A DNA stretch of 40,127 nt. Origin: an uncultured Lachnospiraceae bacterium. Its GTDB lineage: Bacteria; Bacillota; Clostridia; Lachnospirales; Lachnospiraceae. The stretch covers positions 1 to 40,127 of the forward strand of contig CACZXG010000056.1 in the NCBI GenBank assembly GCA_902785055.1. Reading direction: 5' to 3'. Made by a program: the position numbers and the translations under genes. This document shows positions 1 through 37,884 of the stretch, piece by piece. Numbering within the stretch: position 1 is the first letter of the stretch; each line of letters starts with the position of its first letter. Below the pieces are notes generated by a model. That model was not told where the DNA came from, made no database searches, and worked only from the letters and a program-made list of their open reading frames with translations.

Positions 1-22
1 TGCTGGTCTCGTTGTATGCCAT
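1..22 (-). CDS. 5' end of a leftward gene (partial)
   Basis: An ATG on the minus strand at 22-20 opens a frame reading MAYNETS before the window ends. It is preceded by a good Shine-Dalgarno (AAGGAGAAATCACT, minus strand, about 8 nt spacing). Only seven codons are visible, so the product cannot be identified. It is divergent from the excisionase/integrase operon, so the region 23-173 is a shared regulatory region. The mobile-element context suggests an element gene (inference). Confidence 0.5.
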
Positions 23-96
23 AGTGATTTCTCCTTAAACGTACAGACTATGGATGTAATTTATGATAACGCAATGGTCGTTACGATTCAATCAAA

Positions 97-193
97 ATAT
101 ACATGCATATCACTGTGATTGCTCTGTGTCAAATTTATACATGCATATTTTATTATATACATGTACATCTCAATTGACATATACATGTATATG
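97..193. repeat. Four palindromic operator-like repeats
   Basis: Four copies of an AT-rich palindrome with core ATACATGYAYAT lie at about 97-110, 135-148, 154-168 and 178-193. The last is a perfect 16-bp palindrome (CATATACATGTATATG) and falls exactly inside the spacer of the promoter at 174-202. Iterated palindromes over a promoter are typical of repressor operators. The repressor is not in the window and may be the leftward gene or another element gene (inference). Confidence 0.6.
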
Positions 194-202
194 TCATATA
201 AT
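174..202 (+). promoter_or_regulatory. Strong consensus promoter of the xis-int-mobC operon
   Basis: TTGACA at 174-179 and TATAAT at 197-202 are both perfect sigma-70/SigA hexamers, separated by exactly 17 bp. The spacer is almost entirely the 16-bp palindrome at 178-193, so a bound protein would block RNA polymerase. Transcription would start near 209, leaving an untranslated leader of about 250 nt before the first gene at 464. Confidence 0.8.
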
Positions 203-241
203 AATTATAGAAACAATCACAGAAAACAAAAAAATACAGCA

Positions 242-269
242 GTGCACGGGAGCGGCAACTCCCATGCAC
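242..269 (+). other. Leader hairpin
   Basis: An 11-bp inverted repeat with one mismatch (GTGCACGGGAG / CTCCCATGCAC, 6-nt loop) lies in the untranslated leader downstream of the strong promoter. It has no U-tract. It may be a structural part of a leader that controls excisionase/integrase expression. Confidence 0.4.
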
Positions 270-400
270 CCAGCAGGTGATACCAGCACCTACCAGCGGA
301 TCAATCCGCGCTGCATTTGTAAGTATACAATCGATCATTATTATTTTCAATGGATCGGCTCTATTCTTGTATTCGCAGCGTTTCAGGACTTGTCTTTCTG

Positions 401-431
401 CCGTGTAGAGCAAAAGCCTGCACGGTTTTTT
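401..431 (+). terminator. Possible attenuator ahead of the excisionase-like gene
   Basis: CCGTG (401-405) can pair with CACGG (421-425), followed immediately by TTTTTTG. This ends about 30 nt before the start codon at 464. The short stem and 15-nt loop make it a weak intrinsic terminator. Its place between a very strong promoter and the first gene suggests attenuation. Confidence 0.35.
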
Positions 432-463
432 GTTTTCCAAACTTAAAAGGAGAGGCAGTTACT

Positions 464-652
464 ATGAACGCAAACAAGAATTATCTGAACGCAGCCGATG
501 TATCCGCGTATATGGGCATCTCGATTCCTATGGCGTACAAGATCATCCGCAAGCTCAATGACGAGCTCAGGGCACAGGGTTTTATCACCGTGTCCGGCAG
601 GATCAACCGCCGTTACTTCGAACACAAAGTCAATGGCTTCAAGACAGCATAA
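464..652 (+). CDS. Excisionase-like helix-turn-helix protein
   Basis: This 62-residue protein begins with LNAADVSAYMGISIPMAYKI, a winged-helix/MerR-type helix-turn-helix like those of small excisionases and recombination directionality factors. The ATG at 464 is chosen because AAAAGGAGAGGC sits just upstream and because the protein then begins directly at the DNA-binding domain. It ends 12 nt before the integrase gene, whose Shine-Dalgarno (AAGGAGGA) overlaps its stop codon, so the two are co-transcribed. In elements of this kind such a protein biases the integrase toward excision. The exact family is inferred from size, fold and neighbour. Confidence 0.7.
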   Translation: MNANKNYLNAADVSAYMGISIPMAYKIIRKLNDELRAQGFITVSGRINRRYFEHKVNGFKTA

Positions 653-664
653 GGAGGAGACAGA

Positions 665-1753
665 ATGCCCGCATACAAAGATAAAAAGGCCAACACATGG
701 TATGTCAAGTTCAACTACAAGAACTGGAAAGGTGAGACGAAGTTCACCACAAAGAGAGGCTTTTCCACCAAGCGCGAAGCAACCGATTACGAAAACGAAT
801 ATAAGCTGCATATTGCCGGTAGTCTGGATATGACCTTTAAAGATTTCATAGAAGTCTATCGCGAGGACCGCTATCCAAGGATCCGTGTCAGTACCTCCGT
901 CAACAAGGATCATATTATTGATACAAAGATCCTGCCGTATTTCGGAAAATATAAGGTAACTGATATCCGGCCGAAAGATATTGTAAAATGGCAGAACGAG
1001 CTGCTCAGATACAGGAATCCCCGGACAGGAAAGCCTTACTCCAAGACCTATCTCCGCTCTGTACATAGTCAGATGAGCGCCATTATGAACTTTGCTGCCA
1101 AATATTATGATCTCGGCGAAAACCCGGTTTTGAAAGCCGGCAGTATCGGAATCAGCAATTCCGAGGAGATGCTGTTCTGGACTCTCGATGAATACCTGCT
1201 CTTTGCCGACGCCATTATGGAAGAACCCTTTTTCTACTATTGTTTTGAAGTTCTCTACTGGACGGGGATCCGTGAAGGTGAGCTTCTCGCATTGACATAC
1301 GATGATTTTGATTTTGTGAATAAGACCATTTCCATTACGAAGACCTATCAGGTCGTGAGAGGAAAGGAGGTCATCGGCCCTCCCAAGACCTCCAAAGGCA
1401 TCCGCATCGTGAGCATGCCCGACAGGCTCTGTGAGGAAATGAAGGACTATTTTGAAATGTGCTACGACAAAGGGAGCAGCCGTGCATTCGCCACTTCGAA
1501 GCATTCTCTGAAAAAAGCGATGAAGAGAGGCGCCGGTCAGGCTGGTGTCAAAGAGATCCGGATCCATGATCTCAGGCACTCTCACATTTCGCTGCTGATC
1601 AGTCTCGGATTCAGTCCGGTCGAGATTGCCAAGCGGGTCGGTCACGAGAGCATCACGATCACACTTCGATATGCCCACATGTTTCCGTCAGCGCAGAAGG
1701 ATATGATGGACAAGCTGAACCGCCTGACGAGCGATGAACCAGAGGAGGATTGA
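665..1753 (+). CDS. int: Tyrosine-type site-specific integrase
   Basis: This 362-residue tyrosine recombinase carries all the catalytic residues: R203 (in TGIREGELLAL), K244, H301 and R304 (HDLRHSH), H327 (RVGHES) and the nucleophile Y336 (LRYAHM). Residues 1-50 look like an arm-type DNA-binding domain (AYKDKKANTWYVKFNYKNW), residues 55-160 are the SAM-like core-binding domain, and the rest is the catalytic domain. The length is normal for integrases of Tn916-like or phage-like elements. It probably integrates and excises the element that also carries the excisionase and MobC-like genes. It appears intact. The att sites cannot be assigned from this window alone. Confidence 0.93.
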   Translation: MPAYKDKKANTWYVKFNYKNWKGETKFTTKRGFSTKREATDYENEYKLHIAGSLDMTFKDFIEVYREDRYPRIRVSTSVNKDHIIDTKILPYFGKYKVTDIRPKDIVKWQNELLRYRNPRTGKPYSKTYLRSVHSQMSAIMNFAAKYYDLGENPVLKAGSIGISNSEEMLFWTLDEYLLFADAIMEEPFFYYCFEVLYWTGIREGELLALTYDDFDFVNKTISITKTYQVVRGKEVIGPPKTSKGIRIVSMPDRLCEEMKDYFEMCYDKGSSRAFATSKHSLKKAMKRGAGQAGVKEIRIHDLRHSHISLLISLGFSPVEIAKRVGHESITITLRYAHMFPSAQKDMMDKLNRLTSDEPEED

Positions 1754-1754
1754 T

Positions 1755-2087
1755 ATGTCGGCAAAAAACAGAGATCGGCACGGCAGGTGGCGTTCTAGGA
1801 CTGTCGCCTTCCGGGTGTCCGAAGATGAATTCAGATCTATCGATGAAGCCGTAGCTTTATCAGGTCTTACCAAACAGGATTATTTGATTAGCAAACTGCT
1901 TGACCGTGATGTTGTAGTATATGGGAACCCCCGCGTCTTTAAAGCGTTAAAAACAAAGATGGATGCCATATATGAGGAGCTTCACCGTCTGGAATCCGCA
2001 GGTGAAGTCAGCGAGTCTCTTCAGGAGTCCATCGACATGGTTGCCAAGATATACAGCGGCATGACCGAGGCGCCTGAGAAACACTGA
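1755..2087 (+). CDS. MobC-like ribbon-helix-helix mobilization protein
   Basis: This 110-residue basic protein contains TVAFRVSEDEFRSIDEAVAL followed by SGLTKQDYLISKLL, the ribbon-helix-helix pattern of relaxosome accessory proteins (MobC family) of clostridial integrative/conjugative elements. The ATG at 1755 is preceded by GAGGAGG. The integrase stop codon ends at 1753, so the two genes are translationally close. Such proteins bind oriT and help the relaxase. No relaxase is visible here and it may lie to the left. A transcriptional regulator of the same fold is the main alternative. Confidence 0.65.
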   Translation: MSAKNRDRHGRWRSRTVAFRVSEDEFRSIDEAVALSGLTKQDYLISKLLDRDVVVYGNPRVFKALKTKMDAIYEELHRLESAGEVSESLQESIDMVAKIYSGMTEAPEKH

Positions 2088-2100
2088 TCCATATATAAAC

Positions 2101-2154
2101 AGGAGCCATACCTTCGAACTTACTCAGGAAGGTAAGCTCGGAATTATGGCTCCT
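2101..2154. other. 54-nt imperfect inverted repeat between convergent genes
   Basis: Two 23-nt arms (AGGAGCCATA...CTTAC and GTAAG...TATGGCTCCT) pair with three mismatches around an 8-nt centre (TCAGGAAG). The hairpin lies between the stop codons of the MobC-like gene and the leftward recombinase gene. It has no clear U-tract on either strand. It may be a bidirectional terminator, or, since its inner part is two short arms around an 8-bp spacer, a core site for a tyrosine recombinase. Confidence 0.5.
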
Positions 2155-2175
2155 CTGGTATGACCATACAGGTTT

Positions 2176-3636
2176 TCAATCCCCATAGTCACCAGTGTAT
2201 TTTTTCAGAATATCAATCGTCCTGCGCATCTCATATGATTTATATCCCTCACGTACCGTATACTCCACTTCCTCAGGATCATTGGTGATTGGTTTGATCT
2301 TCAATTTGTCGTATTTTTCCAAGGCATAGATCCGCGCCCGGACACATCCCGCGCTGCTCTCTATTTGGATCGTTTTGTTCCCCGAGAACCGCTCCTCATA
2401 AAAGACGGGCAGTGTGATCCGTTCATCTATCTTGTCATTAACGAGCGGGCGGTTTGCCATGCGTTCGCTTAATTGATGCAGCTTGCTGTCCGTATAGTCC
2501 GGTCTGTTGATATAGGGATCGTCGATACAGTGGCCCAGCAGATACTGGATGTCGGGATAGTCCACACCGAGGATCTTTAGGTGGGTCGCAAAATTCCGGC
2601 GCAGCAGATAGGCCGTGACGTTGCTTTCGCTGATCTCCAGCCTGGCGTTTTCTTCTTCCATCTCAATCTCTAATGTGGCAAGCACTTCCGATGCGATTCC
2701 GGCCTGCCTGAAGACCTTTTTTGCTTCTTCTGTCACATCGTCCGCTTTCAGCCTTTTGCCGATTTCTGCCGAATCATCATAAAGCGCACAAGCCGCAGCA
2801 ACTGGAATTCTGTTTATATCAACTTCAAGGCCGTTTTTTTCAATGATCTCTGTAACGATGGCTTTTCGCTCAAGCAGGAATGCTGCGACTCTACCCGGAA
2901 TGGGTATTCTTCTACCCGTATTCCATGTTTTGCCGCTTGACTGCAGGATACTCGTATTGGGGATCGTGGACTGCTTAATGACCGCAACATAGCAGCCGCT
3001 GTAATACGGAAGCTCATAGATTTCCCCGAAATCCAAGCCGCACGCTTCTCCGTCGCGGAGCCCAAGTGCAAACATTAACAGCAAGGCAATGCGTTTTCCG
3101 TTTACTTTGGGAGATTCCATCAGAATGGAAATGAGTGCCTTCTCCTGATCTATAGAAAGGGATCTTTTGATCTGCGTTTTCGAGCGGACAGCAATAGTCT
3201 CCCGCCCGAAGTTCAGTTCAAATTTCGTGCCCCACAGGAATCTGTCACAATAGCCCGCATTGGCAGCATGGAAGAATACCGAATAAATCAGATACTTGAA
3301 ATGGTTTATCGCGTTTTCCGAGTACTCGCACTTTACTCCTTTGTTGTCGTATCCGTCCTCCTGTATCCTGCGCAGCATCTCCTCACAGTCTTCTTTGGTG
3401 TAGGATGAAATGATCTTAGTATTGTGGTTATCAATGTGTGGCAGGATCACATTATTGTAATCACGATCGTATTTTTTCCTTGTTGTGTCCTTCCAAAATC
3501 TGGCAATCACTTTATAAAACTCTTCCAGTGTTCCGCAAAATGTCAGTGGAGTGATCATGACTCCATTTCTAATTCCAGTCTGTTCATCGCTGTGATACTC
3601 CCTGGCCCACTGGTCGGATATTAAGGGTCTACGCAT
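2176..3636 (-). CDS. Tyrosine recombinase, third gene of a three-gene module
   Basis: This 486-residue protein has a SAM-like core-binding region (about 35-140) and a tyrosine recombinase catalytic domain. Box I is FALGLRDGEACGL (R194), a lysine near K236 sits before GRRIPIP, and box II is LLRRNFATHL (R346, with the usual first His replaced by Y343). LLGH (H369) follows, with candidate nucleophile Y381 (RPDYTD). The catalytic domain carries a large insert (about 255-335) that canonical integrases lack. ATG at 3636 has a good Shine-Dalgarno (GAGGGAG). Its start overlaps the end of the 857-residue gene by 16 nt, so they are translationally coupled. It is unlike the integrase at 665 and may act together with the two upstream proteins. 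Confidence 0.8.
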   Translation of the reverse strand: MRRPLISDQWAREYHSDEQTGIRNGVMITPLTFCGTLEEFYKVIARFWKDTTRKKYDRDYNNVILPHIDNHNTKIISSYTKEDCEEMLRRIQEDGYDNKGVKCEYSENAINHFKYLIYSVFFHAANAGYCDRFLWGTKFELNFGRETIAVRSKTQIKRSLSIDQEKALISILMESPKVNGKRIALLLMFALGLRDGEACGLDFGEIYELPYYSGCYVAVIKQSTIPNTSILQSSGKTWNTGRRIPIPGRVAAFLLERKAIVTEIIEKNGLEVDINRIPVAAACALYDDSAEIGKRLKADDVTEEAKKVFRQAGIASEVLATLEIEMEEENARLEISESNVTAYLLRRNFATHLKILGVDYPDIQYLLGHCIDDPYINRPDYTDSKLHQLSERMANRPLVNDKIDERITLPVFYEERFSGNKTIQIESSAGCVRARIYALEKYDKLKIKPITNDPEEVEYTVREGYKSYEMRRTIDILKKYTGDYGD

Positions 3637-6194
3637 GGAAACTCCCTCTGCTCATAAGATGATATTGCTATCATAAAACCATGAGTGCTTTCTACGCGGA
3701 TTGTAATTGGCTCATTTACGACATCACCGCTTTCTGTAACACCCCTGACAACTTCAATTTCAGCGTACGGGACACCATCGCCGATTCCCTTGATAGTACC
3801 CGCTGCTGTTGATCTCTGGTAATCAGCTTGTTTTCTGGAGTCATAACATACCAGCCACCGGTCCAATTTCCGTGCCATGATCAGCTGCACATACGGATTT
3901 GTATAGTCACAATAGTGCTGTGAAAAAGTATCAGGCTTTTTAAGCCCCAGATAATAATTCAGCTCGTCCAATCCGAATCCGGCTTCATTAAGTGCCTTGT
4001 CGCGGAAGTTGGTCCTAAAAATGTCACCATTGTAGCTGTTTATGTCTGTTTCAATATCGTTTCCGTCTTTGCCCGGCAGAATAATCGGGAACTGCGGTAT
4101 TTCGGCAGCTTCAACAGCTTTCCTGCATTTCTCAGCAACGGCTGCAGGCTTGCAGTACACTGGTTTATGCCCCTTGCGCATATGTGCAAGGTCTTCGCGA
4201 GGTAAGATGATTGGATACTCTTCAAGCGTCTGGTCGTCCAGTTCCTCTTTTTTCAGGTAGTTCTTTCTGGCCTTTAGGATTCTGCCAAGCAATGCTGAGA
4301 TTGGAAGTATTCTGTATTTTTCCCAATTCTCTTCTACTACGTGATGTATTACCTTCCCGTTTGAATCAACAAATTTCGTTACAGAGAGTGTATAAATATC
4401 TATCTTGTCATCATAATGAAAGTCGCTCCATTGCAGTCCGCACACCTCTCTGATCGTAATACCAGTCATCAATCTGATCAAAGCAGAGAGGTAAATGCTG
4501 GACTTAACGCATAATGGCAGCAGGTATTTCACCATCCTTTGCTCTTCAGCCGTTTCAAAGCTGCGTTTGGTTAGTGCCTGCCGAACCTCTGCCTGGCGTT
4601 TAGTCGCTCTGTTCTGGGCGGCCGATATCAGGGGGAGGATTCTGTTTTCTGACAAATATCCCTGCTTCACGGCCTCTGTAATGACCAGATTAACCAGTTT
4701 GAGCAGCCTGAGCTCTTTCACCTCTTCTCCCTCTTCAAGCTGTTCTTCGATTGCTTTCCTGAACGCATCTCCTCTGTCTCTGTCAGGATATAGGTCGGAG
4801 ATTGCAGTCCCCCTGGAAAACAGTACTTCCATCGTATCGTCGTCATAAGAAGTGTTCTTCTGCAGCTCATACCTGAGACAAAACCATAGAGTTTTCAACG
4901 TTACTGACTCGCCGGTTTTAAGGTAGTTCTTTAAAATATCTGCTGTGATGGCCTCGCTCATCGATTTGCTGTAAGGAACCTTTTCCAATGCATCAATGAC
5001 TTGGCTGGCGGTCTTGGCACGGAGTCCCCTTTCAACTCTTGTTGTTAATGCTTTCCCACGGACTTCCGGCAGATGCGGATACTTGGTCGCCGCATAATAT
5101 GCCTTTGCATAGCAGCCGTTATGACCACGATACAGTGCATACGAAATTGGGATCTCCCGGCTGAAAGCATATAAGTCTGCTGACGTGTAATCGCTTTCCT
5201 TTTTCCCTTTTACTTCCTTATCTTCTTTGTCTTCTCCCGACTCTTCATTTGAAGCATTTTTCCAAAGCTGATTGAGCGTCTTGCAATTCATCAGTTCTTC
5301 CTGTCTGACGATCATTTTATGATCTGCCAGAGAAACCGTTTTCTCAGAACTGTTATATTCCATTTTCTGAACCGTCAGTTCCTGCTCCAAGACCAAGTCT
5401 TTTTTTTTACTTTCTATGCTGATCAGACACTTTTTTCTTGGTGTGGAATTGGATGCTTCGTTCGGCAGGATGACCATGCCCCGAATCACATAGCGGCCTG
5501 CTGACAACGCTTGCCAGAACAGCGACTCCTTATTGTCTATCAGTCTGGTCTGGATGATGCCATATATTCTTTCTACGCGAACAGTTCCGACATACTCCAT
5601 TATCTTCCGGAGTGACTTTTCATCGATATTCGTGGTGAAGATAATCATTACATCTGCACCGGCAACGTTGTGGATGTTTTCGATAGAGACAAATTCCGAG
5701 CGCTTGAATTGCTTTGAATAAAGGCTCGCCATCGTCTTGTCTATAACCGCGTAAGCAGTGTTCCTTCCGTTCTTCTCAACGGACTCCACCACAAACGGGC
5801 TCGGATTTATGATCAATACTCTCTGATCCGCGGCGATACTGTCCTGGACCAAGCTTAGAAAGACCCTTTCCAGCGCAGAATCATTGCGGTTCTTATTGCG
5901 GTAATAGATGCTCTTTATGACAGAAATAGGATTCTGCCTGTAAAGAGACATTGCGGAGACATTGAACAATGTCTCCGCTGCGCTGACTCCGCAGACCACG
6001 GGAGTGCCTTTTCTGATATGTATGCTCTCCCAAGGATTAACAGCCGTTTCCAATAGATCCGGATATGTAATAACATCATTGTAGTCCGTTAATAATTGGC
6101 TTAACGGGACTCCCATGGTCGTATATGTGTTTATTGCATCAGCAATTGTCCCATTAGTTCTTAGGGTAATTGACGCCAATTTCATATCTTCCAT
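3621..6194 (-). CDS. Large protein with degenerate tyrosine-recombinase C-terminus
   Basis: This 857-residue protein has a C-terminal third (about 545-790) that resembles a tyrosine recombinase. Box I is MTGITIREVCGLQW (R582). A box II-like FRTNFRDKAL (R727) lacks the leading His. The LGH motif is replaced by YLGLKKPD, and Y761 or Y764 may be the nucleophile. Residues 1-300 have alternating hydrophobic strands that look Rossmann-like, including RVLIINPSPFVV and DVMIIF, and then MVILPNEASNSTP, faintly reminiscent of N6-adenine methyltransferases (inference only). A charged linker (about 315-335) separates the halves. It overlaps the upstream gene by 13 nt and the downstream recombinase by 16 nt. 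The start may also be the ATG three codons further in, which has a better Shine-Dalgarno. Confidence 0.65.
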   Translation of the reverse strand: MEDMKLASITLRTNGTIADAINTYTTMGVPLSQLLTDYNDVITYPDLLETAVNPWESIHIRKGTPVVCGVSAAETLFNVSAMSLYRQNPISVIKSIYYRNKNRNDSALERVFLSLVQDSIAADQRVLIINPSPFVVESVEKNGRNTAYAVIDKTMASLYSKQFKRSEFVSIENIHNVAGADVMIIFTTNIDEKSLRKIMEYVGTVRVERIYGIIQTRLIDNKESLFWQALSAGRYVIRGMVILPNEASNSTPRKKCLISIESKKKDLVLEQELTVQKMEYNSSEKTVSLADHKMIVRQEELMNCKTLNQLWKNASNEESGEDKEDKEVKGKKESDYTSADLYAFSREIPISYALYRGHNGCYAKAYYAATKYPHLPEVRGKALTTRVERGLRAKTASQVIDALEKVPYSKSMSEAITADILKNYLKTGESVTLKTLWFCLRYELQKNTSYDDDTMEVLFSRGTAISDLYPDRDRGDAFRKAIEEQLEEGEEVKELRLLKLVNLVITEAVKQGYLSENRILPLISAAQNRATKRQAEVRQALTKRSFETAEEQRMVKYLLPLCVKSSIYLSALIRLMTGITIREVCGLQWSDFHYDDKIDIYTLSVTKFVDSNGKVIHHVVEENWEKYRILPISALLGRILKARKNYLKKEELDDQTLEEYPIILPREDLAHMRKGHKPVYCKPAAVAEKCRKAVEAAEIPQFPIILPGKDGNDIETDINSYNGDIFRTNFRDKALNEAGFGLDELNYYLGLKKPDTFSQHYCDYTNPYVQLIMARKLDRWLVCYDSRKQADYQRSTAAGTIKGIGDGVPYAEIEVVRGVTESGDVVNEPITIRVESTHGFMIAISSYEQREFPCVDP

Positions 6195-7156
6195 AACTTC
6201 GTATCCATGTTTTTCGTCAATGCATTTGCAGAGAAAATCAAAATCTGCTTAGCTGAATTGATCTTGCACCAATAACCTCCCCTACATCCCTCACATTTTC
6301 TCGGGTACAGCGGGCACTTCTCAGCGCACTGATCTTTTCCCATCATCGCAAATACGGCGGCAACTAATACATCCAGCGGTTCGCATCTGGGCTTGTATTC
6401 ATCGTAGGTTCCGTTGCTCCTTGCGCCGCCCCGAAAGAGTTTCTTTTTAATCTCTCCATAACAATTACTGACATCCAGACAAAACCTCACAAATGAATAC
6501 TCTTTAGTCTCTCCGTCATGCCAAAACATAGTCAGCCAGATCTCCTTTTGTTCCTTCATCATAACGATGATCCGTTCCGAGGTATCCGCGTCAAATTTCA
6601 AGCTGCCGACCCACCTTGCATCGATAATCCTCGCGCCGATCTTAACAAGGCCTTTTTTCTCCCAGACATGCTTTGCCCATTTATCAAAAATGACGAAATC
6701 CAGAAATCTATAACTTGATCCCATATAGGTGATATCTAAAGGGTTCTCATCATAAATGCCTGCCTTCACAAGCTGTATGAGCTGTGTAATTCTTTTGGGT
6801 TTGAATGGTGCATTTTCGGGCTCATCTTCTTCTCCACCGGTGGGAAGAGTAATGCCTACTCCGCTTCCACCGCCTCCAAGGCGTTTTTCAGTATTTTTGC
6901 TGAGCATTGCAATCAGCTCCTCCGGTGAAATATTTGTAAGCACCGGTGCAGATTTTTTGCCGTCATATGCCTGACATACTGACCGATGTACTTCTCCGTT
7001 TTGCAAGACAAAATGATATCTATCTGTTTCATTCGGAAACAGCTTCACATGCATCTTAGCGCCACAGTGTATGCACAGTACATCTTTCCTGCGCAGCTCC
7101 TCTCCTTCATCTGCAAAAACTCTTCTGCCGTTATACCAACCTTCTATAATGCTCAT
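6182..7156 (-). CDS. Cysteine-rich protein, first gene of the recombinase module
   Basis: This 324-residue protein belongs to no family I recognise. Near the N-terminus is a probable zinc finger (LCIHCGAKMHVKLF, then HRSVC). Near the C-terminus is a dense cluster C-x3-C-x6-C-x2-C-x6-C (DQCAEKCPLYPRKCEGCRGG), which could bind zinc or an Fe-S cluster. The middle has a glycine-rich linker (LGGGGSGVG) and a tryptophan-rich region. The ATG at 7156 is chosen because GAGGAGG lies 10 nt upstream; a longer frame to 7300 runs through AT-rich and hairpin DNA and is unlikely. It is the first gene of the leftward operon and overlaps the next by 13 nt, so it probably works with the two recombinase-like proteins, perhaps in DNA recognition. 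Confidence 0.6.
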   Translation of the reverse strand: MSIIEGWYNGRRVFADEGEELRRKDVLCIHCGAKMHVKLFPNETDRYHFVLQNGEVHRSVCQAYDGKKSAPVLTNISPEELIAMLSKNTEKRLGGGGSGVGITLPTGGEEDEPENAPFKPKRITQLIQLVKAGIYDENPLDITYMGSSYRFLDFVIFDKWAKHVWEKKGLVKIGARIIDARWVGSLKFDADTSERIIVMMKEQKEIWLTMFWHDGETKEYSFVRFCLDVSNCYGEIKKKLFRGGARSNGTYDEYKPRCEPLDVLVAAVFAMMGKDQCAEKCPLYPRKCEGCRGGYWCKINSAKQILIFSANALTKNMDTKLWKI

Positions 7157-7257
7157 TGATGTCTTACCTCCTCTTCTGGGCCATCCTTTACATATATACA
7201 TATATAAGATTTTCTCGGAAAACCTGCATTTTTGAGCCCAAAGCGTGACGTACATAA
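7157..7257 (-). promoter_or_regulatory. Probable promoter region of the recombinase module
   Basis: The 100 bp upstream of the cysteine-rich gene contain an alternating AT tract (7190-7206, CATATATACATATATA). On the minus strand TTTCCG and TATATA are spaced by 17 bp, a weak promoter match. The tract resembles the ATACATGYAYAT repeats at 97-193 but is not a clear copy. A promoter is expected here because the upstream side is closed by the terminator at 7258-7294. Confidence 0.3.
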
Positions 7258-7294
7258 AAAAGCACCTGCCGGCATACCACGGGCAGGTGCTTTT
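7258..7294. terminator. Intrinsic terminator (bidirectional)
   Basis: A perfect 13-bp stem (AAAAGCACCTGCC / GGCAGGTGCTTTT) with an 11-nt loop has A-runs and T-runs on its two sides, so it can act in either direction. It separates the mobile module from the guaA side. Confidence 0.75.
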
Positions 7295-7393
7295 CACCAT
7301 TCGTTATTGCTTGATAGGTGCCCTTATTAGCATCAGTTTTCCGACAAATATTCTTTTCAACCCCCTGTTTTTTTCTTCAAATTTGTCGGTATT

Positions 7394-7413
7394 TTGGGTC
7401 AATGTTGGGTCAA
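7394..7413. repeat. Tandem TTGGGTCAA pair next to guaA
   Basis: Two exact copies of TTGGGTCAA (7394-7402 and 7405-7413) are separated by 2 bp, an 11-bp period, just beyond the guaA terminator. They lie in about 130 bp with no gene. They may be a protein-binding site, or the remnant of a coding end or attachment region of the adjacent mobile DNA. Confidence 0.4.
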
Positions 7414-7426
7414 AAGGGCATAAAAA

Positions 7427-7464
7427 ATCCCCGGAAAGCCCATAAATAAAGGCTTTCCGGGGAT
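7427..7464 (-). terminator. guaA transcription terminator
   Basis: A perfect 14-bp stem (ATCCCCGGAAAGCC / GGCTTTCCGGGGAT, 10-nt loop) is followed on the minus strand by TTTTTTA, directly after the guaA stop codon. It is a textbook Rho-independent terminator. Confidence 0.9.
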
Positions 7465-7470
7465 CGTTAA

Positions 7471-8457
7471 TTATTCATACTCTACAGTAGCCGGGGGCTT
7501 GGGTGTAAAGTCGTAGAGGACGCGGTTGATACCGGGAACCTCTGTGATAATACGCTGAACAAGGTGGTCGATCAGCTCGTTGGGCAAATGCTCAACAGTA
7601 ACTTCCATGACATCGGTAGTGTTGATGGCACGGATGATGCAAGGCCAGTCGAAGGTGCGCTTGCCGTTCTTGACGCCGGTGGACTTGAAGTCCGGAACGA
7701 CGGTGAAGTACTGCCATACTTTGCCCTCGAGGCCGTTCTTGGCGAACTCTTCGCGAAGGATCGCGTCGGATTCGCGGACTGCTTCGAGTCTGTCGCGGGT
7801 GATCGCGCCGGGGCAGCGTACGCCGAGGCCGGGGCCCGGGAAGGGCTGGCGGTCAACCATGCTTGCGGGAAGGCCGAGCTCTCTGCCGACCATACGGACT
7901 TCGTCCTTGAAGAGGATCTTGACGGGCTCTACCAGCTCAAATCTGGAAGCGATATCTTCCGGAAGGCCGCCTGCGTTGTGGTGTGCCTTGATGCCGGCTT
8001 CGCTCTCGAGAATGTCGGGCCAGATGGTTCCCTGTGCCAGGAACTTCACGCCGTCGAGCTTTCTGGCTTCGTCAGCGAATACGTCGATGAACTCCTCGCC
8101 GATGATGTGTCTCTTCTCTTCGGGATCAGAAACGCCTGCGAGTTTGTCAAGGAAACGGTCTACCGCGTCGACATAGATGAGGTTCGCGTTCATCTCGTCG
8201 CGGAAAACTCTGATGACCTGCTCGGGCTCGCCTTTGCGAAGAAGGCCGTGGTTTACGTGAACGGAAATCAGCTGTTTGCCGACTGCCTTGATCAGAAGCG
8301 CTGCTACTACAGAGGAATCAACACCTCCGGACAGTGCCAGCAGTACCTTGTTATCGCCGATCTGCGCGCGGAGCTCTTTAATCTGCTCGTCGATGAATGC
8401 CTGCGCGAGAGCGGGAGTTGTGATTCTTTCCATATTTTCGGGTCTTCTCTCTGTCAT
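7471..8457 (-). CDS. guaA: GMP synthase ATP-PPase subunit (no glutaminase domain)
   Basis: This enzyme amidates XMP to GMP with ATP in purine synthesis. The 328-residue protein has the ATP-pyrophosphatase P-loop LLALSGGVDSSVVAALL near residue 40, the FPGPGLGVR motif and the conserved GuaA ending KPPATVEYE. Bacterial GuaA is usually about 510-525 residues with an N-terminal class-I glutaminase; here that domain is entirely absent, as in the split enzymes of archaea (GuaAa/GuaAb). The start at 8457 is set by AGGAGGAATCA just upstream, so this is not a misplaced start. Ammonia must come from a separate glutaminase subunit encoded elsewhere, or be used directly (inference). Its 3' end adjoins the mobile region. 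Confidence 0.92.
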   Translation of the reverse strand: MTERRPENMERITTPALAQAFIDEQIKELRAQIGDNKVLLALSGGVDSSVVAALLIKAVGKQLISVHVNHGLLRKGEPEQVIRVFRDEMNANLIYVDAVDRFLDKLAGVSDPEEKRHIIGEEFIDVFADEARKLDGVKFLAQGTIWPDILESEAGIKAHHNAGGLPEDIASRFELVEPVKILFKDEVRMVGRELGLPASMVDRQPFPGPGLGVRCPGAITRDRLEAVRESDAILREEFAKNGLEGKVWQYFTVVPDFKSTGVKNGKRTFDWPCIIRAINTTDVMEVTVEHLPNELIDHLVQRIITEVPGINRVLYDFTPKPPATVEYE

Positions 8458-8668
8458 TGATTCCTCCTGTATTAGAATAAATCTTCTTATTAACTATATT
8501 GTAACATTTTAACCGCTCCGGGGGCTTCGCACAATTCAAAATATTGACAATATTACCCCTCTGAAAACGCCATTAACTGACAGATTTTGCAGTATCGGCA
8601 AGATTGTGCGCCCGGTTCCGGGATCACAGTTCCCTTATCGCCGGCGGTTTATGTCCCCGGCCTCGGGA
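8458..8668. other. Intergenic region upstream of guaA
   Basis: This 211-bp stretch is AT-rich near guaA (TACAAT-like and TAAAAT-like hexamers on the minus strand) but has no convincing -35/-10 pair. I see no recognisable purine riboswitch core. Confidence 0.3.
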
Positions 8669-10186
8669 TCACAGCCCGTAGAGCTCTGAATATTTTGCCT
8701 CCAGATAGTCCAGGAAGTCGACCGGTGTGAACTCGCGCCCGGTGATGTCTTTGATCCATTCCTTGGGCGAGAGTCTGTCTGCCTTGTTAAAAACATGCCC
8801 GATCATCCAGTCGTTGAGCGGCGCAAAGTTTCCTTCGCGGATCGCGGCGTTTACATCCACTTCTTCCTTGAGGCGGTTGTAGTACATGGCGTTGTAGAAG
8901 TTGCCGATGGCGTAGGTCGGGAAATATCCGAAGCCGGAAGTCCAGTGCACATCCTGCAGGGCTCCTTCTCTGTCGGAAGAAGGGCACACGCCCAGGTATT
9001 CCTGATATTTCCTGTTCCAGAGCGCAGGAATATCTTCCACCTTGATCTCGCCCGCGAAGAGCGCTTTCTCGATCTCATAGCGGATGATGATGTGGAAGGT
9101 GTAGGTGAACTCGTCCGCCTCAGTGCGGATCAGCGAAGGGCTGACCGCGTTCACCGCCTCATAGAACTCCCTCTCGGAGACATCTGCCATCACCTGCGGG
9201 AACACCTCGCAGACCTTGGGATATACAAAGTGCACGAAAGCTTCCGACCGGCCGATCCTGTTCTCATAGAAGCGGGAGACCGACTCGTGCATGCCCAATG
9301 TTTTGCCGCCTATGATGAAGTGGTCGTGGTTCTCCTGGGGCTGGTTCTGGTCGAACAGCGCGTGCCCGCCCTCGTGAATGGTCGAATACATCGAGGACAG
9401 GAACCTTGTCGGATAATAATGCGTCGTGATGCGGGTGTCGAATCGTCCCATTCCCGCCGTGAAGGGATGCTCTGAGGTCGTAAAGGCGCCGCGGTTGAAA
9501 TTGAAGCCCATCTGTGTGAGGAGCCATTTTACCATCTTCGCCTGCTGCTCGTCCTCCACGCGCCGGCTCAGGAAGTCCGTGCGGATCTTCTTGGGGCTCT
9601 TGCGGATTTTCTCGAGCAGCGGGATCAGGCGTTCTTTGCAAGCCCCGAAGGTCTCGTCCAGCACATCCGAAGTCATGCCTCTCTCATAGTCATCCAGCAG
9701 TGTATCATAAGCAGTCTTGCCCGCAGCGTCCGCGCCGCGCAGCTCGATCATGCGCCGGTTTGTGTCCGCCACTTCTTTCAGGGAAGGCGCAAAAAGACTG
9801 TAATCGCCCGCTTCTCTCGCCTTGCTCCAGTTCACGAAAGCGCGGTTGAAAGTCAGCATGAACTCGTGCTGAAGCTCGGGTGTCACATTTTTGCTCTGCA
9901 GGTAATTCCTGTGCAGCTGCTCCGCCATCACCCGGTCCAGCTCCTCCAGTTCGCTTCTGTGCTCGTACAGGCACTCCGCCGCCTCGATAAAAGAAGGATC
10001 TTTGGTCAGTTTGTAGGACTGATTATTGAGAAAAGCCCAGACTTCGCCCTGCTCCTCCATCGCGTCGATGGGACAGATCGTCTCCTGATCGTAGCTCAGG
10101 ACGTTGACCGCGTGGTCGTATTTCTCGGCGAGCGCCAGGGTCTGTTTTACATGCTGCAGTTTCTGTTCCAGTGTTGTGTTTGCCAT
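8669..10186 (-). CDS. M32 family metallocarboxypeptidase (Taq type)
   Basis: This zinc carboxypeptidase removes C-terminal residues from peptides in the cytoplasm. The 505-residue protein is the usual length for the family. It has the zinc motif HEGGH (STIHEGGHALFDQN) with HESVSRFYENRIGRS downstream, and the family signature IRTEADEFTYTFHIIIRYEIE. There is no signal peptide. ATG at 10186 has an AAGGAGA Shine-Dalgarno 11 nt upstream. It lies 99 nt downstream of the DUF89-GNAT gene on the same strand and may be part of the same transcript. It probably recycles peptides; nothing in the context indicates a special substrate. Confidence 0.93.
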   Translation of the reverse strand: MANTTLEQKLQHVKQTLALAEKYDHAVNVLSYDQETICPIDAMEEQGEVWAFLNNQSYKLTKDPSFIEAAECLYEHRSELEELDRVMAEQLHRNYLQSKNVTPELQHEFMLTFNRAFVNWSKAREAGDYSLFAPSLKEVADTNRRMIELRGADAAGKTAYDTLLDDYERGMTSDVLDETFGACKERLIPLLEKIRKSPKKIRTDFLSRRVEDEQQAKMVKWLLTQMGFNFNRGAFTTSEHPFTAGMGRFDTRITTHYYPTRFLSSMYSTIHEGGHALFDQNQPQENHDHFIIGGKTLGMHESVSRFYENRIGRSEAFVHFVYPKVCEVFPQVMADVSEREFYEAVNAVSPSLIRTEADEFTYTFHIIIRYEIEKALFAGEIKVEDIPALWNRKYQEYLGVCPSSDREGALQDVHWTSGFGYFPTYAIGNFYNAMYYNRLKEEVDVNAAIREGNFAPLNDWMIGHVFNKADRLSPKEWIKDITGREFTPVDFLDYLEAKYSELYGL

Positions 10187-10285
10187 TTATCGTGTTGTCT
10201 CCTTGCATTAATTGTTTACCGCTTTTCCGGCACCAATCGCCGGATCTGTTCTGCGGCAGCCCCCGGCAGGTATATGCCTCGGGCG

Positions 10286-11686
10286 TCACCCGTCCAGCCT
10301 CATCTCCATCTCATGCCAGGGGTCGCCGCCCCACACAGAGTCCGAAATGCCCAGATCCCGGAATCCCATCTTCTCATACATGGGTACCTTCTCGTCGTGC
10401 GCCGTGAGCACCATCCTGTGACGTCCCTTGACCTGTCCCCAGATCGCATACAGCCGGATCAGTTCCTTCGCCAGGCCCTGCCCCCGATACGCCGGCAAAA
10501 CATCGAGTCCCATAAGGAAATCCGTCTGTGCCGCAGGATCGTGCAGCGTCATGTCCGTAAAGAATTCATCTTTGAATCGGTCTTCATCTGAAGATATTCC
10601 GTCCAGAAATCCTGCGATCTCCCCGGTCTTTCGGTCGACCGCCACAAGGAACTGCCCAGGCATCATTTTTACGCGCCTGTACATCTCTTCTTCCGGGCAC
10701 GCCTCATTAGGAGGAAAACAGATCCGCTCGATCGCGTTGATCTTCTCCGCTTCATCTGCCCGGACCTGCCGGAACTCGTACCGTTTCAGGAGTTCTTCGT
10801 CCCCATAAACCCCGAACAGGATCGCCGGATCCTCATGTGCCAGAATTCCCGTGAACTGCGGCACCTTGAAGCGGTCCATGAAGAGCATGCACTTGCACAT
10901 GAAGATAAAGAATATATTATACCCGCAGCCGTAAAGCGTCTCGTAGTTGGCCTGCCCCTTAGCAATGACCACGCCTGCGTGCGCGATTGCTTCCCGCGCC
11001 TCGCGGGACACCGTTCTGAGCACCGTTCCATCTGTCGCCGTACCATTGCCTATGCAATGTCCAAGCTTTGTAAGGCCGACCTGCTCCGCGTCCTCCAGTG
11101 TCGCGTCGTTGGCGACCGGCCCTCCTCTCACGATCACAGTGATCGACAGATCCGGGTTCATGCGGAGAATCTGGCGGAGCAATATTTTGTCCATAACAAT
11201 CTCACCGCAGTTGTCGGTGATGAGGACCAGTGTGCGGGCTGTCCCGGCTTGCTCCCGCAGCTGCTCCAATGCCTCCGCATCGACCGTGATATCCGGTGCG
11301 CGGTCGATCAGCTCCATGAGCTTGCTCTCCTCGACCTTGTCCAGCGCGGCAAAATCGATGAAATTTCCCATCATCGCGTACTGCACGGCGCTCTTAAGCG
11401 GATCCGCCGACGCTTCGACCCGCTTTTCCAGCTCCGGCTCGATCTCCAGCATCAGCGCGTTAAAATGGCGTTTGATCTGCTCGTAATCCATCTCTCCCTC
11501 GCCAAACAGGCGCTTCCTGAGCGCCTTGACCTCGTAGAAAACCTCCGGCCCGGTGGGCACCGCTCCCGTCTGGTCCGTGATCCTGACCAGCGTCTCCTGA
11601 TACTCCCTGATCAATTCTTCCGGAGCACCCTCGGGATAGTTATTCAGATGCTTGTTCAGCATACATTCTTTACACGCGCTGTTCAT
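10286..11686 (-). CDS. DUF89 (ARMT1-like) phosphatase fused to GNAT acetyltransferase
   Basis: Residues 1-290 are a DUF89/ARMT1-like metal-dependent phosphatase domain. It has an N-terminal CKEC pair, TDNCGEIVMDKIL (D158, N159, E162), VANDATLEDA (D195) and AKGQANYETL (K243, N247, E249). Members of the family hydrolyse damaged or unwanted phosphometabolites. Residues from about 303 to 466 form a GNAT N-acetyltransferase with the acetyl-CoA loop YRGQGLAKEL. The two domains are in one uninterrupted frame. The start codon overlaps the stop codon of the MBL gene by one base (TAATG), so the two are translationally coupled. The substrate of either half is unknown; the coupling suggests one pathway with the MBL hydrolase. 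Confidence 0.85.
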   Translation of the reverse strand: MNSACKECMLNKHLNNYPEGAPEELIREYQETLVRITDQTGAVPTGPEVFYEVKALRKRLFGEGEMDYEQIKRHFNALMLEIEPELEKRVEASADPLKSAVQYAMMGNFIDFAALDKVEESKLMELIDRAPDITVDAEALEQLREQAGTARTLVLITDNCGEIVMDKILLRQILRMNPDLSITVIVRGGPVANDATLEDAEQVGLTKLGHCIGNGTATDGTVLRTVSREAREAIAHAGVVIAKGQANYETLYGCGYNIFFIFMCKCMLFMDRFKVPQFTGILAHEDPAILFGVYGDEELLKRYEFRQVRADEAEKINAIERICFPPNEACPEEEMYRRVKMMPGQFLVAVDRKTGEIAGFLDGISSDEDRFKDEFFTDMTLHDPAAQTDFLMGLDVLPAYRGQGLAKELIRLYAIWGQVKGRHRMVLTAHDEKVPMYEKMGFRDLGISDSVWGGDPWHEMEMRLDG

Positions 11687-22664: not shown

Positions 22665-24528
22665 TTACTTGAACAGGTCGTAGATCTCATCTACGCTGAG
22701 GTGGATGATGCGCTCAACCGCTTCTTCGGACTCGCAGGTTGTAGCGATCTTGCCCAGGGTCTCAACGTGATCATCGCCTGCGGAAGCAACTGCGATAACC
22801 AGCTTGACTGTCTCGCCATCGCCCCAATCGGTTCCATCGGGATAGGTCATGATCGCAAGACCGGAGTTCTTGATCTCGCCGATGACGCTCTCAACGCCGT
22901 GAGGGATTGCCAGGTTATTGCCGATCGCTGTGTTGAAGATATCTTCCTTCGCGATCATGCCGTCTACATACTTCTCAGTGACATAGCCGCTGTCCACAAG
23001 GAGCTTGCCGATCGCACGGATCGCGTCGTTCTTCGGAACGGGCTTGTTGTTCAGAATGATGTTCTTCTTCAGGAGCACGCCGCCGTGGAAGTCATGGCCG
23101 CCTGCGTTTGCAACGTTCTTGTTGGACTTGGCATCCAGGATCTCCTGAACGATCATGTCATACTCAGGAGCGTTCATGAAGTTGCTGATAGTGACGATTC
23201 TTGCGCTGGGAGCGGACTTTCTTGCGCGCTCAACCAGATCCTGGTGGCAGACTACAAACTTAACGCCTGCGGGAACTTCGGATACGGAGTAGTGGGAAAC
23301 CTTGATGTTTCCAAGACCCTTCGCCTCGAGCTTCTTCTGAAGGACTGCAGCGCCCATAGCGGAGGAGCCCATGCCTGCGTCGCAAGCAAATACGATTCTG
23401 TCAAGAGTTCTGAGGTCAACTTCGCCGCCGTCAGCGGTTGCAGCGTATGCGCCCTTGGAAGCAGCCTTCATGTTGCTCATCTGGCTCTGTGCGTCCTCAA
23501 GGCTTGCGCTGGAGTTGGACATCTTCACGATCGGAGAAGCGATCAGGAAGGAAACTGCGGTGCCGATCAGGAAGCTGATGATGACCATGAGCTGTCCGCC
23601 TCTGGGAGCAACTGCCAGCAGTGCCAGGATGGAACCGGGAGATGCAGGGCTTACAAGGCCGACGTTGAAGATGGTGTTGAAGAACATTGCCGCAACGGAG
23701 CCGCCGATGGTAGCGAGAAGCAGCAGGGGGTTCATCAGAACATAAGGGAAGTAGATCTCGTGGATACCGCCGAGTACGTGCACGATCAGAGCGCCGGGAG
23801 CGGAATCCTTGGTTGCCGGTTGCCTTGTCATTGGAGAACATCCAGTAAGCGAGCAAAACGCCTGCGCCTGCGCCGGGGTTGGTCTCAATGAGATAGAATA
23901 CGGACTTGCCGAGCTGCTCAACCTGCTGTGCTCCGAGAGGAGTGAAGATACCGTGGTTGATAGCGTTGTTCAGGAACAGGACCTTAGCGGGCTCTACGAA
24001 GATGGAGACCAGAGGAAGGAGACCTGCCTTGACCAGAATGTCAACACCGCCGGACAGAACTACCAGAACACCTGCCATAAGAGGGCCGATCAGGTAGAAG
24101 CCTACGATAGCGAGGAGCATGCCCAGGATACCAACGGAGAAGTTGTTGACCAGCATCTCGAAGCCTGCAGGGATCTTGCCTTCGACTGCCTGGTCGAACT
24201 TCTTGATCACCCAGCCGCCCAGAGGGCCTGCGAGCATAGCGCCCATCAGCATGGGATAATCGGGAGCGCCGCAGATAACGCCGACGCATGCGATCGCGCC
24301 CATGACCGCGCCTCTTGCGCCGCCGACCATCTTACCGCCTGTGTAAGCGATCAGGATCGGGAGCACATAGGAAAGCATCGGGCTGACCATTGTGGAAAGC
24401 TGCTCATTGGGAAGCCAACCGGTTGCAATGAACAGTGCTGTGATAAGTCCCCATGCGATGAACGCGCCGATGTTCGGCATGACCATTCCGCTGAGGAACC
24501 GACCGAAGGATTGAACTCTTTCTTTCAT
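22665..24528 (-). pseudogene. mtlA: PTS mannitol EIICBA, frameshifted by 7-bp duplication
   Basis: MtlA imports and phosphorylates mannitol. The first frame (24528 down to about 23815) encodes the EIIC transmembrane start, [20 protein letters not shown], through about residue 238 ([12 protein letters not shown]), then shifts. The rest continues in another frame: [20 protein letters not shown] of EIIC, the EIIB loop ACDAGMGSSAMG (phospho-Cys) and EIIA with NLAIPHGVES (phospho-His). The break is a tandem GGCAACC duplication (minus strand) at 23811-23824. Without one copy the gene is 1857 nt and codes for 618 residues, close to E. coli MtlA (637). All domains are otherwise intact, so the event is recent or reversible. 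ATG at 24528 is preceded by AAAGGGG. Confidence 0.9.
23811..23824. repeat. 7-bp tandem duplication causing the mtlA frameshift
   Basis: GGTTGCC occurs twice in tandem on the plus strand (23811-23817 and 23818-23824). One copy is expected from the protein alignment: [13 protein letters not shown] is continuous when a single copy is read. Confidence 0.85.
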
Positions 24529-37092: not shown

Positions 37093-37150
37093 AAACGACC
37101 TCTGGGGTCATTTGTCCACATCTGGGGACAAACCACCCCAGAGGTCGTTT
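37093..37150. repeat. Second copy of the palindromic element, after the ABC gene
   Basis: Two 28-bp arms complementary at 25 positions (AAACGACCTCTGGGG / CCCCAGAGGTCGTTT outer part) enclose a 2-nt loop. It shares the CCTCTGGGG / CCCCAGAGG core with 35231-35288. It may terminate the ABC transcript but has only a short T-run (GTTTGACC). Confidence 0.85.
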
Positions 37151-37180
37151 GACCCCCCTGAACTCAAAAGGAGCCCCACC

Positions 37181-37873
37181 ATGGCAAATACCTACACTGA
37201 CCCCGTAAAGATCATCGAACTCAAGGAGTCAATCCTCGAGGACAACAACAAAGATGCACAGGATCTCCGCAGCGAACTGAAGGCGCAGAAGACCTGCCTT
37301 CTCAACCTCATGTCCGGGCCCGGCAGCGGCAAGACCACCACTCTCCTTGCCCTGAACAAATACCTCAGAGGCCGCCTCAAATGGGGTGTCATGGAGGCCG
37401 ACATCGACTCCGACGTAGACGCCAGGACGATCCTCTCCGCAGGCATCTCCGCTGTACAGCTGCACACCGGCGGAATGTGCCATCTGGACGCCGACATGAC
37501 GAGGCAGGGCCTGAAAGCCCTCTTTGAGAGCACCGATGAGCATCTGGACTTTGTGGTTCTTGAGAACATCGGCAACCTGGTGTGCCCCGCCGAATTCGAC
37601 ACCGGCGCGGCCATCAAAATGACAATTCTCAGCGTCCCCGAGGGCGATGACAAACCTGCCAAGTACCCTCTCATGTACGAGGAGTGCGATTTAATGGTTG
37701 TCAACAAAATCGACGCGCTGCCTGTGTTCGATTTTGACAAGGAGAAGGCGGAGCGCTATGCAAAACATCGCAACCCTTCAATCAAAGTATTCTACATAAG
37801 TGCCAAGACCGGCGAAGGCGTGGAAGCGCTGGCCGAAGAAATCATAAGACAAGTGCAGGCCTGGAACGCATAG
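37181..37873 (+). CDS. hypB: HypB-type nickel-insertion GTPase, copy 1
   Basis: HypB is a GTPase that delivers nickel to the [NiFe]-hydrogenase active site. The 230-residue protein has the P-loop LMSGPGSGKTTTLLAL, the metal site GGMCHLDADM (Cys-His) with a second Cys in ENIGNLVCPAEFDTGA, and the G4 motif NKIDALPVFD. The N-terminal metal-rich extension of some HypB proteins is absent. ATG at 37181 is set by AAAGGAGCCCCACC. It is followed 11 nt later by a second hypB. No other hyp or hydrogenase gene is in the window; other nickel or metal enzymes are possible clients. Confidence 0.92.
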   Translation: MANTYTDPVKIIELKESILEDNNKDAQDLRSELKAQKTCLLNLMSGPGSGKTTTLLALNKYLRGRLKWGVMEADIDSDVDARTILSAGISAVQLHTGGMCHLDADMTRQGLKALFESTDEHLDFVVLENIGNLVCPAEFDTGAAIKMTILSVPEGDDKPAKYPLMYEECDLMVVNKIDALPVFDFDKEKAERYAKHRNPSIKVFYISAKTGEGVEALAEEIIRQVQAWNA

Positions 37874-37884
37874 AGGAGACAAAC

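Follow-up and report, generated by a model that had tools for sequence, protein, structure and literature searches.

What would a mobile element that already carries a complete integrase do with two further proteins of the tyrosine-recombinase kind? The question is raised by contig CACZXG010000056.1 of an uncultured Lachnospiraceae bacterium, a whole contig of 40,127 bases that was analysed at full length and is called the window here. Three overlapping leftward genes, which we name CYS, LARGE and SMALL (Table 1), lie between the integrase (Int) cassette of an integrative element and the junction of that element with guaA. SMALL and LARGE both resemble tyrosine recombinases, and in distant homologues SMALL keeps the catalytic pocket and LARGE keeps a tyrosine. 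We give about an even chance to the reading, based on this residue pattern, that the two proteins form an obligate heteromer with a composite active site in which Tyr761 of LARGE serves the SMALL pocket.

All three open reading frames (ORFs) were found as an earlier prediction from the sequence of this contig (the original prediction) had described them, with overlaps of 16 nucleotides (nt) between SMALL and LARGE (3621-3636) and 13 nt between LARGE and CYS (6182-6194). The LARGE start is ambiguous from sequence: if translation begins at the fourth codon (ATG 6185-6183), the LARGE/CYS overlap becomes the common 4-nt ATGA. The CYS ATG is preceded by GGAGG, and the longest CYS ORF extends to 7300. 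These overlaps suggest co-transcription and coupled translation, not equimolarity. Judged by their homologues, LARGE and SMALL are not chance ORFs, because particular residues are conserved among sequences with pairwise identities of 12-31% (LARGE) and 14-38% (SMALL).

Catalytic residues of SMALL and LARGE

The assignment of the 486-residue SMALL protein to the tyrosine-recombinase family holds. It matches Pfam PF00589 (5.7e-7), its sequence relatives in the PDB are Tn1549 Int and XerD, and its predicted fold, which is fairly well supported, resembles XerA, Tn1549 Int and Cre in structure comparison. The top fold matches (ranks 1 to 3) have root-mean-square deviations of 13-16 Angstrom, which we think reflects two domains that are set differently.

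Catalytic columns were read from alignments of 16 SMALLs (median pairwise identity 22%) and 15 LARGEs (median 18%). The window SMALL retains Arg194 (Arg-I), Glu197, Lys236, Arg346 (Arg-II) and His369 (His-III), with Tyr343 at the usual His-II position, and Arg-I, Lys, the Tyr of YxxR, Arg-II and His-III are each present in 16/16 sequences. Ten SMALL columns are invariant (G192, R194, E197, K236, R242, R257, Y343, R346, G368 and H369), six of which are catalytic-site columns. The normal nucleophile position, at His+9, is occupied by Arg378 in the window and by R in 10, K in 4, V in 1 and N in 1 of the aligned SMALLs. Tyr381, at His+12, falls in a column dominated by Y and F (F 8, Y 5, S 1, P 1, K 1), and seven of the 16 proteins have no Tyr at all between His+6 and His+15. 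SMALL has the fold, Arg-I, Lys, Arg-II and His-III of a tyrosine recombinase and lacks a conserved nucleophilic Tyr in the same chain.

A GyrA-type DNA-wrapping domain is clearly recognizable (1.5e-15) at the C-terminus of one SMALL homologue (locus L125, 8528-11233; L and G numbers are our own identifiers for loci and genomes), and a second homologue (L126, 4649-7864) has a weak match to this domain (0.0071), which fits an enzyme that acts on DNA. We know of no recombinase in which such a gyrase-A-type wrapping domain is present.

In the 857-residue LARGE protein, a methyltransferase-like Rossmann domain (residues ~104-265) precedes the degenerate tyrosine-recombinase domain that had been predicted for the C-terminus. 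That prediction is borne out by a match of the C-terminus to a PHROG integrase (7.1e-4) and, weakly, by a Cre-like fold at ~541-755 in a low-confidence model; a PDB search gave no sequence relative of LARGE. Tyr761, just past the Cre-like domain, is the sole invariant residue of the 15 aligned LARGEs. The Arg-I position is Thr580 in the window and holds Arg in 0/14 LARGEs (the fifteenth row is without that region), the His-III position is Leu751 in the window and holds His in 1/15, and Arg-II is present in 8/15. At L127 (6600-8239) the LARGE region is split over two ORFs that overlap by 4 nt, and the tyrosine is on a separate protein of 156 residues.

As a control, 18 ordinary Ints from the same and related loci keep Arg-I, His-II and Tyr in 18/18 each, with the Tyr at His+9 in 14 and at His+10 in 4. 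Profile comparison relates SMALL and LARGE to Int at 99.4% and 98.6% probability, and scores highest for SMALL against LARGE (99.7%, E 6e-27). Since they are closest to each other and both related to Int, the two look like paralogues with complementary losses, of the tyrosine in SMALL and of the pocket in LARGE. The original prediction had recognized the degenerate C-terminus of LARGE, but missed this complementarity.

The Lys, Tyr343, Arg-II, His-III and LARGE tyrosine columns were not part of the DNA pattern with which some of the loci were found. Two additional pairs, L115 (fetched on account of its Int) and L170, were kept outside the alignments and used as a test. In the L115 SMALL, R, K, YxxR and GH are all present and the 18 residues that follow GH include no Tyr, while its partner keeps a Tyr in SDSYTSFTSP and has no Arg-I; this partner matches that of L129 (BLASTP, 4.5e-32) and does not match the LARGE profile. 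At L170 (in G1194; a relative of L130 with a SMALL cut N-terminally), R, K, YxxR and GH are kept in SMALL, and the partner again has the Tyr and no Arg-I.

Several observations weigh against a divided active site. The DNA pattern demanded GLR..EACG, by which Arg194 and Glu197 were preselected in 6/16 SMALLs. Tyr381 of the window SMALL lies three residues beyond the usual spot, and because 5/16 SMALLs have Tyr in this column, some of them might act alone. The same column holds a Tyr in the L170 SMALL as well, and to judge from such residues L130, L170 and the window SMALL are weaker cases for the split. The LARGE structure model is weak (predicted local distance difference test, pLDDT, 53), and the LARGE tyrosine is found at +10 from the His-III position in 14/15 sequences and at +11 in 1/15, as compared with mostly +9 in ordinary Ints. 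Among the distant LARGE rows, L127b, L128 and L130 match a LARGE profile of 7 sequences with values of 6e-9 to 3e-8 (search set of seven proteins), and L129, which does not match it, is linked via L130 only (BLASTP, 2e-43); with such weak placement, the tyrosine column of these four depends on the alignment. For the pair, neither a substrate site nor rearranged DNA was detected. Lastly, the tyrosine-recombinase repressor MrpR is described as catalytically dead, although it keeps the Tyr and Lys and its Tyr matters for DNA binding (PMC10516654), so invariance of a Tyr does not by itself make it a nucleophile.

This precedent also underlies the main alternative, that LARGE and SMALL are exapted, catalytically dead recombinase folds that serve as DNA-binding regulators or silencers, like the phage repressors MrpR and SroF. 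We consider this unlikely. Whereas MrpR lost most of the catalytic set, SMALL keeps all of it except the Tyr in 16/16 distant homologues, and there is no obvious reason for two regulators to shed complementary halves.

If instead the active site is composite, a common tyrosine-recombinase ancestor would have given rise to both SMALL and LARGE, now an obligate heteromer with one site per pair. SMALL Arg-I, Lys, Arg-II and His-III would bind and activate the scissile phosphate, LARGE Tyr761 would enter this pocket in trans as the nucleophile, and neither protein would be active alone. The methyltransferase-like domain of LARGE and the zinc ribbon of CYS would probably supply DNA or protein contacts. 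The trio may be an accessory DNA-breaking-and-rejoining module on an integrative element that presumably enters guaA by means of its ordinary Int/Xis cassette, and the pair would most likely be a second strand-exchange or strand-passage enzyme acting on element DNA. One possible job, which is a guess, is to resolve multimers or tandem copies; these appear to be present at guaA.

A wider proposal, to which we give a little less than an even chance, is that the pair represents a bacterial tyrosine recombinase in which two paralogues obligately share one active site, the first with the pocket and the second with the nucleophilic tyrosine. This arrangement would have been kept in a family diverged to ~20% identity, with few other residues conserved, and repeatedly recruited beside unrelated integrases as a second engine for recombination or topoisomerase-like activity, with a methyltransferase-like or gyrase DNA-wrapping domain in some branches. 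If this is true, trans tyrosine donation has been fixed in evolution by assigning the active-site halves to two genes. Such a recombinase would be inactive until both partners meet on DNA, and the gene responsible for each cleavage would be fixed, so that simple mutants could be used to ask how strand order and directionality are set by tyrosine recombinases. Some hypothetical proteins of gut and rumen bacteria, such as both members of an Aristaeella pair, would be explained as well.

The pair and its neighbours in other genomes

Searches with the LARGE protein gave an element in G011, a relative in the same genus (L046), and Aristaeella lactis record NZ_CP069422 (L045), in which both pair members are annotated as hypothetical. 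A DNA-pattern scan of genome contigs for the SMALL motif returned 8 contigs, which represent six new loci plus L053 and L055 of the G011 element. A SMALL profile applied to 250 genomes of one family returned 8 places in 6 genomes, including the already known L063. When L046, L060, L053 and L055 are counted as one, the main set comprises 16 SMALL loci.

The original prediction held that homologues occurring singly in many contexts would mean that the module is not new; instead, a LARGE-like gene adjoins SMALL in 15 of the 16 loci, and the sole SMALL without one, at L124, is itself missing its N-terminal part. LARGE comes first in every pair of the main set but those of L129 and L130; the order is also reversed in L115 and L170, which are not in that set. 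At L062 and L125 the LARGE match is limited to an ORF of ~300 amino acids (aa), and the small ORF before it has no match.

Conservation of the whole trio in order, which had also been suggested as a check, was not found, since the position of CYS varies: it opens the trio in the window and follows SMALL in L046/L060 and L059, lies upstream in divergent orientation in L063, and is convergent in L124. The predicted Cys-rich partner is a recurrent zinc-ribbon protein, but CYS-like proteins were recognized in only these 5/16 pair loci, a count that is not a uniform test because a ribbon regular expression found three (window, L059 and L124) and the other two were found by eye. Cys28, Cys31 and Cys61 are invariant across the five, and further Cys residues are near the C-terminus. 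The other CYS-like proteins share 16-25% overall identity with that of the window, and a BLASTP comparison of the window and L046 proteins was not significant (best E 1.8). Common descent, resting on neighbourhood and the shared C..C...C pattern, is plausible, not proven. The window CYS has no Pfam family match; those of L059 and L124 match CoiA_N weakly (0.0011 and 0.0015) and do not reach its curated cut-off. A CYS search in 392 genomes of the order found the protein in its own genome only.

Pair loci beside guaA number 5 of 16 (window, L046/L060, L058, L059 and L130), all with the Int family of the window, and guaA is absent from the stretch or contig examined in the other 11. The Aristaeella record contains a fragment of the same Int family. 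L061, L062 and L064 have a different one (identity of the first two Ints to the L064 Int is 51-54%), the integrase relatives at L125 and L126 are more distant, and L124 has a 56-residue Int-like fragment. No Int relative was present in the stretches fetched for L063, L127 (18 kb) and L129. By visual inspection, an ORF at L128 looks like a large serine recombinase.

Protein and pattern scans of viral contigs yielded no relative of LARGE or SMALL, nor was there an Int relative in them; phage records held no relative of LARGE or of the L063 SMALL. Among plasmid records the pair was found only in the Aristaeella lactis record, and CYS in none. A LARGE search in 146 relatives gave 6 matches at E<=0.001, which were the window, G011 and four weak ones; the four (ORFs of 381-514 aa) were read as ordinary integrases. 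Profile A1 (978 positions) matched in 48 of 391 genomes of the class, and the matches listed outside the window, which cover <200/978 positions in ORFs of 182-514 aa, were read likewise. In 148 genomes, SMALL profile A2 found its own genome and 5 partial matches. The wider SMALL profile A8, applied to 177 + 170 genomes, added one new clear member, that of G1194 (L170), its other matches being mostly partial and to apparent ordinary integrases.

The occurrence of the pair beside unrelated integrases, and at L127 with no Int relative nearby, would fit a trio that is an autonomous Tn554/SE/GInt-like transposon landed in the guaA element. So would the plan described for Tn554 and SE, in which two recombinases that differ in size are accompanied by extra proteins (PMC10214605). 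This explanation is nonetheless improbable. The main recombinases of Tn554, SE and GInt are reported with RHRY, and neither protein here has the full conserved set. An ungapped search for inverted repeats covered window positions 1-7600 and L127 positions 5200-11000, the far end of the window element being off the contig. It gave 18 chance-like pairs in the window, none of which frames the trio, and 9 at L127, only one of which, a 15-nt pair (87%), flanks the genes. Also, the genome of the window has a single LARGE match.

Other neighbours are suggestive of a defence or anti-competitor system located near an integrase. The L059 CYS matches the N-terminus of the Druantin protein DruB (5.4e-6), and at L058 (3017-5262) SMALL is followed in the same direction by a Fic protein (SoFic, 4.5e-42) and a PtuA-like AAA ATPase (1.1e-38). 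We think it quite improbable that this is the role of the trio. Seven LARGE and SMALL proteins (both from the window and from L046, LARGE of L061 and L063, and SMALL of L126) match no PADLOC model at E<=0.1, and the window CYS reaches only E 0.03, to an effector model.

The guaA element carrying the trio

The features at this end of the window are listed in Table 1. Arm-binding, SAM-like and integrase domains are all above cut-off in Int, and the carrier has the combination of Tn916-type Int plus Xis by which Tn5801-like elements are recognized. The TTGGGTCAA repeats stand where some related elements have paired repeats.

Table 1. Positions of the trio, the element genes and the guaA junction in the window
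Feature	Position	Strand	Description
Xis-like protein	464-652	+	ICEBs1 Xis model 6.7e-13, below curated cut-off
Int	665-1753	+	Complete Tn916/Tn5801-type tyrosine integrase; likely integrase of the element
NikA-like mobilisation protein	1734-2087	+	
SMALL	2176-3636	-	486 aa; tyrosine-recombinase-fold protein
LARGE	3621-6194	-	857 aa; degenerate tyrosine-recombinase domain in C-terminal part
CYS	6182-7156	-	Zinc-ribbon protein, 324 aa counted from ATG
Two TTGGGTCAA repeats, 11 nt apart	7394-7413		Just outside guaA; presumed Int arm sites
Presumed attachment core GAGTATGAATAA	7471-7482	-	guaA 3' end; GAGTGGGAATAA in relatives
guaA	7471-8457	-	Host gene for guanosine monophosphate (GMP) synthase, named from sequence and relatives; element joins its 3' end

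Int matches at E<=1e-70 occur in 60/295 genomes of the order, including that of the window, and 20 stretches were fetched from 8 of the Int-positive genomes. In six (G257, G343, G261, G185, G241 and G214), guaA has Int and Xis close by. The first profile detected no LARGE in the 20 stretches, and the matches of wider profiles in the six guaA genomes were Int ORFs only; this absence applies to the stretches, not to whole genomes. The only pair in the 20 stretches is L115 (G092), where guaA was not seen. Because the Int/Xis cassette is found at guaA without the pair in six genomes, it is most likely Int, and not the trio, that sets the guaA site. The suggestion that the genes form a mobile system is thus retained in part, in that the trio is inside a mobile element but is probably not the machinery of this insertion. 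The converse, that LARGE and SMALL are the guaA-site integrase and Int is a passenger, could draw on the 5/16 pair loci that adjoin guaA, but is very improbable in view of these six pair-free cassettes and of the 11/16 loci without guaA, three of which have a different Int family.

The L046 and L060 loci are 99.6% identical over 9,717 bases and differ at the guaA end while being identical in the next stretch, which places the pair inside the element. No far attachment site could be located for the window element, whose contig starts at window position 1; the genome contains a single instance of the guaA-end pattern. With up to 3 mismatches allowed, the guaA end has no further copy in the L058, L059 and L060 stretches, nor do these contain a far-end repeat of at least 12 nt, except one A-rich 12-mer in L059. 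In G343, two stretches that begin in the guaA end, of 33 and 28 nt, are repeated at distances of 26 and 51 kb. In G241 and G185, 12-mers of the guaA-end core recur, possibly by chance; no repeat of this core was found in G261 or G1065, and the three repeats of G257 begin past the guaA stop.

Int homologues, some with internal stops, lie ~8-60 kb apart near guaA in G343 (C1 2721547-2852474), G257 (C2 38912-77782) and G261 (C54 85379-126440). G343 has six Int copies within ~131 kb, three of them with internal stops, as if guaA elements were stacked in tandem.

The Xis-Int cassette is oriented toward guaA in the window, L058 and L059, but has the opposite orientation in L060, in L130 and in the elements that lack the pair, indicating that the cassette is flipped relative to the junction. 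Upstream of xis, three near-copies of a ATATACATGTATAT-like palindromic sequence (window 97-196) are a possible operator. Two observations by eye concern other parts of the window. Two overlapping ORFs in different frames (22665-24528) jointly resemble one mannitol-type phosphotransferase system (PTS) permease, possibly because of a frameshift, and two HypB-like GTP-binding proteins are adjacent to each other (37112-38580).

Comparison with known multi-recombinase systems

The site of Tn5801 lies at the 3' end of guaA and has a core repeat of 11 bp (PMC4844618). The window element is like the Tn5801-like elements described in that report in its location at the guaA 3' end and its Tn916-type Int, and its presumed attachment core may correspond to their short core repeat; unlike it, they are not associated with a LARGE/SMALL pair in the accessible part of the report.

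That the trio is unlike Tn554 or RIT, as the original prediction stated, holds against printed descriptions of both. RIT elements (RitABC) share with the trio an arrangement of three adjacent overlapping genes (PMC3414803). However, the RIT archetype is described as three recombinases of 315-410 aa that all have the catalytic tyrosine (PMC10214605), whereas the window proteins are 324, 857 and 486 aa, and CYS has no recombinase match, so there are not three recombinase genes in a row. Not all RitB proteins are reported to keep the conserved residues (PMC3414803). The Gamma-Mobile-Trio (GmtX/Y/Z) is likewise a trio with a long integrase-like protein (the GmtZ profile has 784 positions) and is described in cargo-carrying islands (PMC12715929, PMC12039261). 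No NCBIfam Gmt match was obtained with the window trio (E<=1), with 6 LARGE and 8 SMALL proteins or with 10 distant proteins (E<=5), in a library where only the GmtZ model was confirmed and distant relatives could be missed. The window Int has a weak match to the GmtZ model (0.021).

Both recombinases of Tn554 and of SE are reported with RHRY (PMC10214605), unlike the pair studied here, in which LARGE is without Arg-I and His-III (0/14 and 1/15) and SMALL is without a conserved Tyr; the third protein, a zinc-ribbon protein, also differs from Tn554 and SE. GInt (ginABCD) is similar in having several recombinase-fold proteins per operon, of which GinC is catalytically incomplete, and all four gin genes are reported to be needed for excision and integration (PMC5385486). 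By that description, GInt has three recombinase-fold proteins and GinA and GinB have RHRY, whereas the window trio has only two such proteins and neither is complete. SE Tfp and GinC are both incomplete recombinase folds, but they occur beside complete ones (PMC10214605, PMC5385486).

A search of the literature for split or trans active sites, with subscription journals mostly outside its reach, turned up no bacterial heteromeric split-site tyrosine recombinase. There are two precedents for a shared site. In Flp, the tyrosine is donated in trans between identical subunits. Leishmania topoisomerase IB is described as a bipartite enzyme whose active site forms between unlike subunits (PMC2492870); that enzyme is eukaryotic and split into two unlike pieces, whereas the split proposed here would be between paralogues that each have a recombinase-like fold. 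Against Tn554, SE, GInt and the archetypal RIT, as known from their descriptions, it is this apparent division of one active site over two proteins that sets the SMALL/LARGE pair apart.

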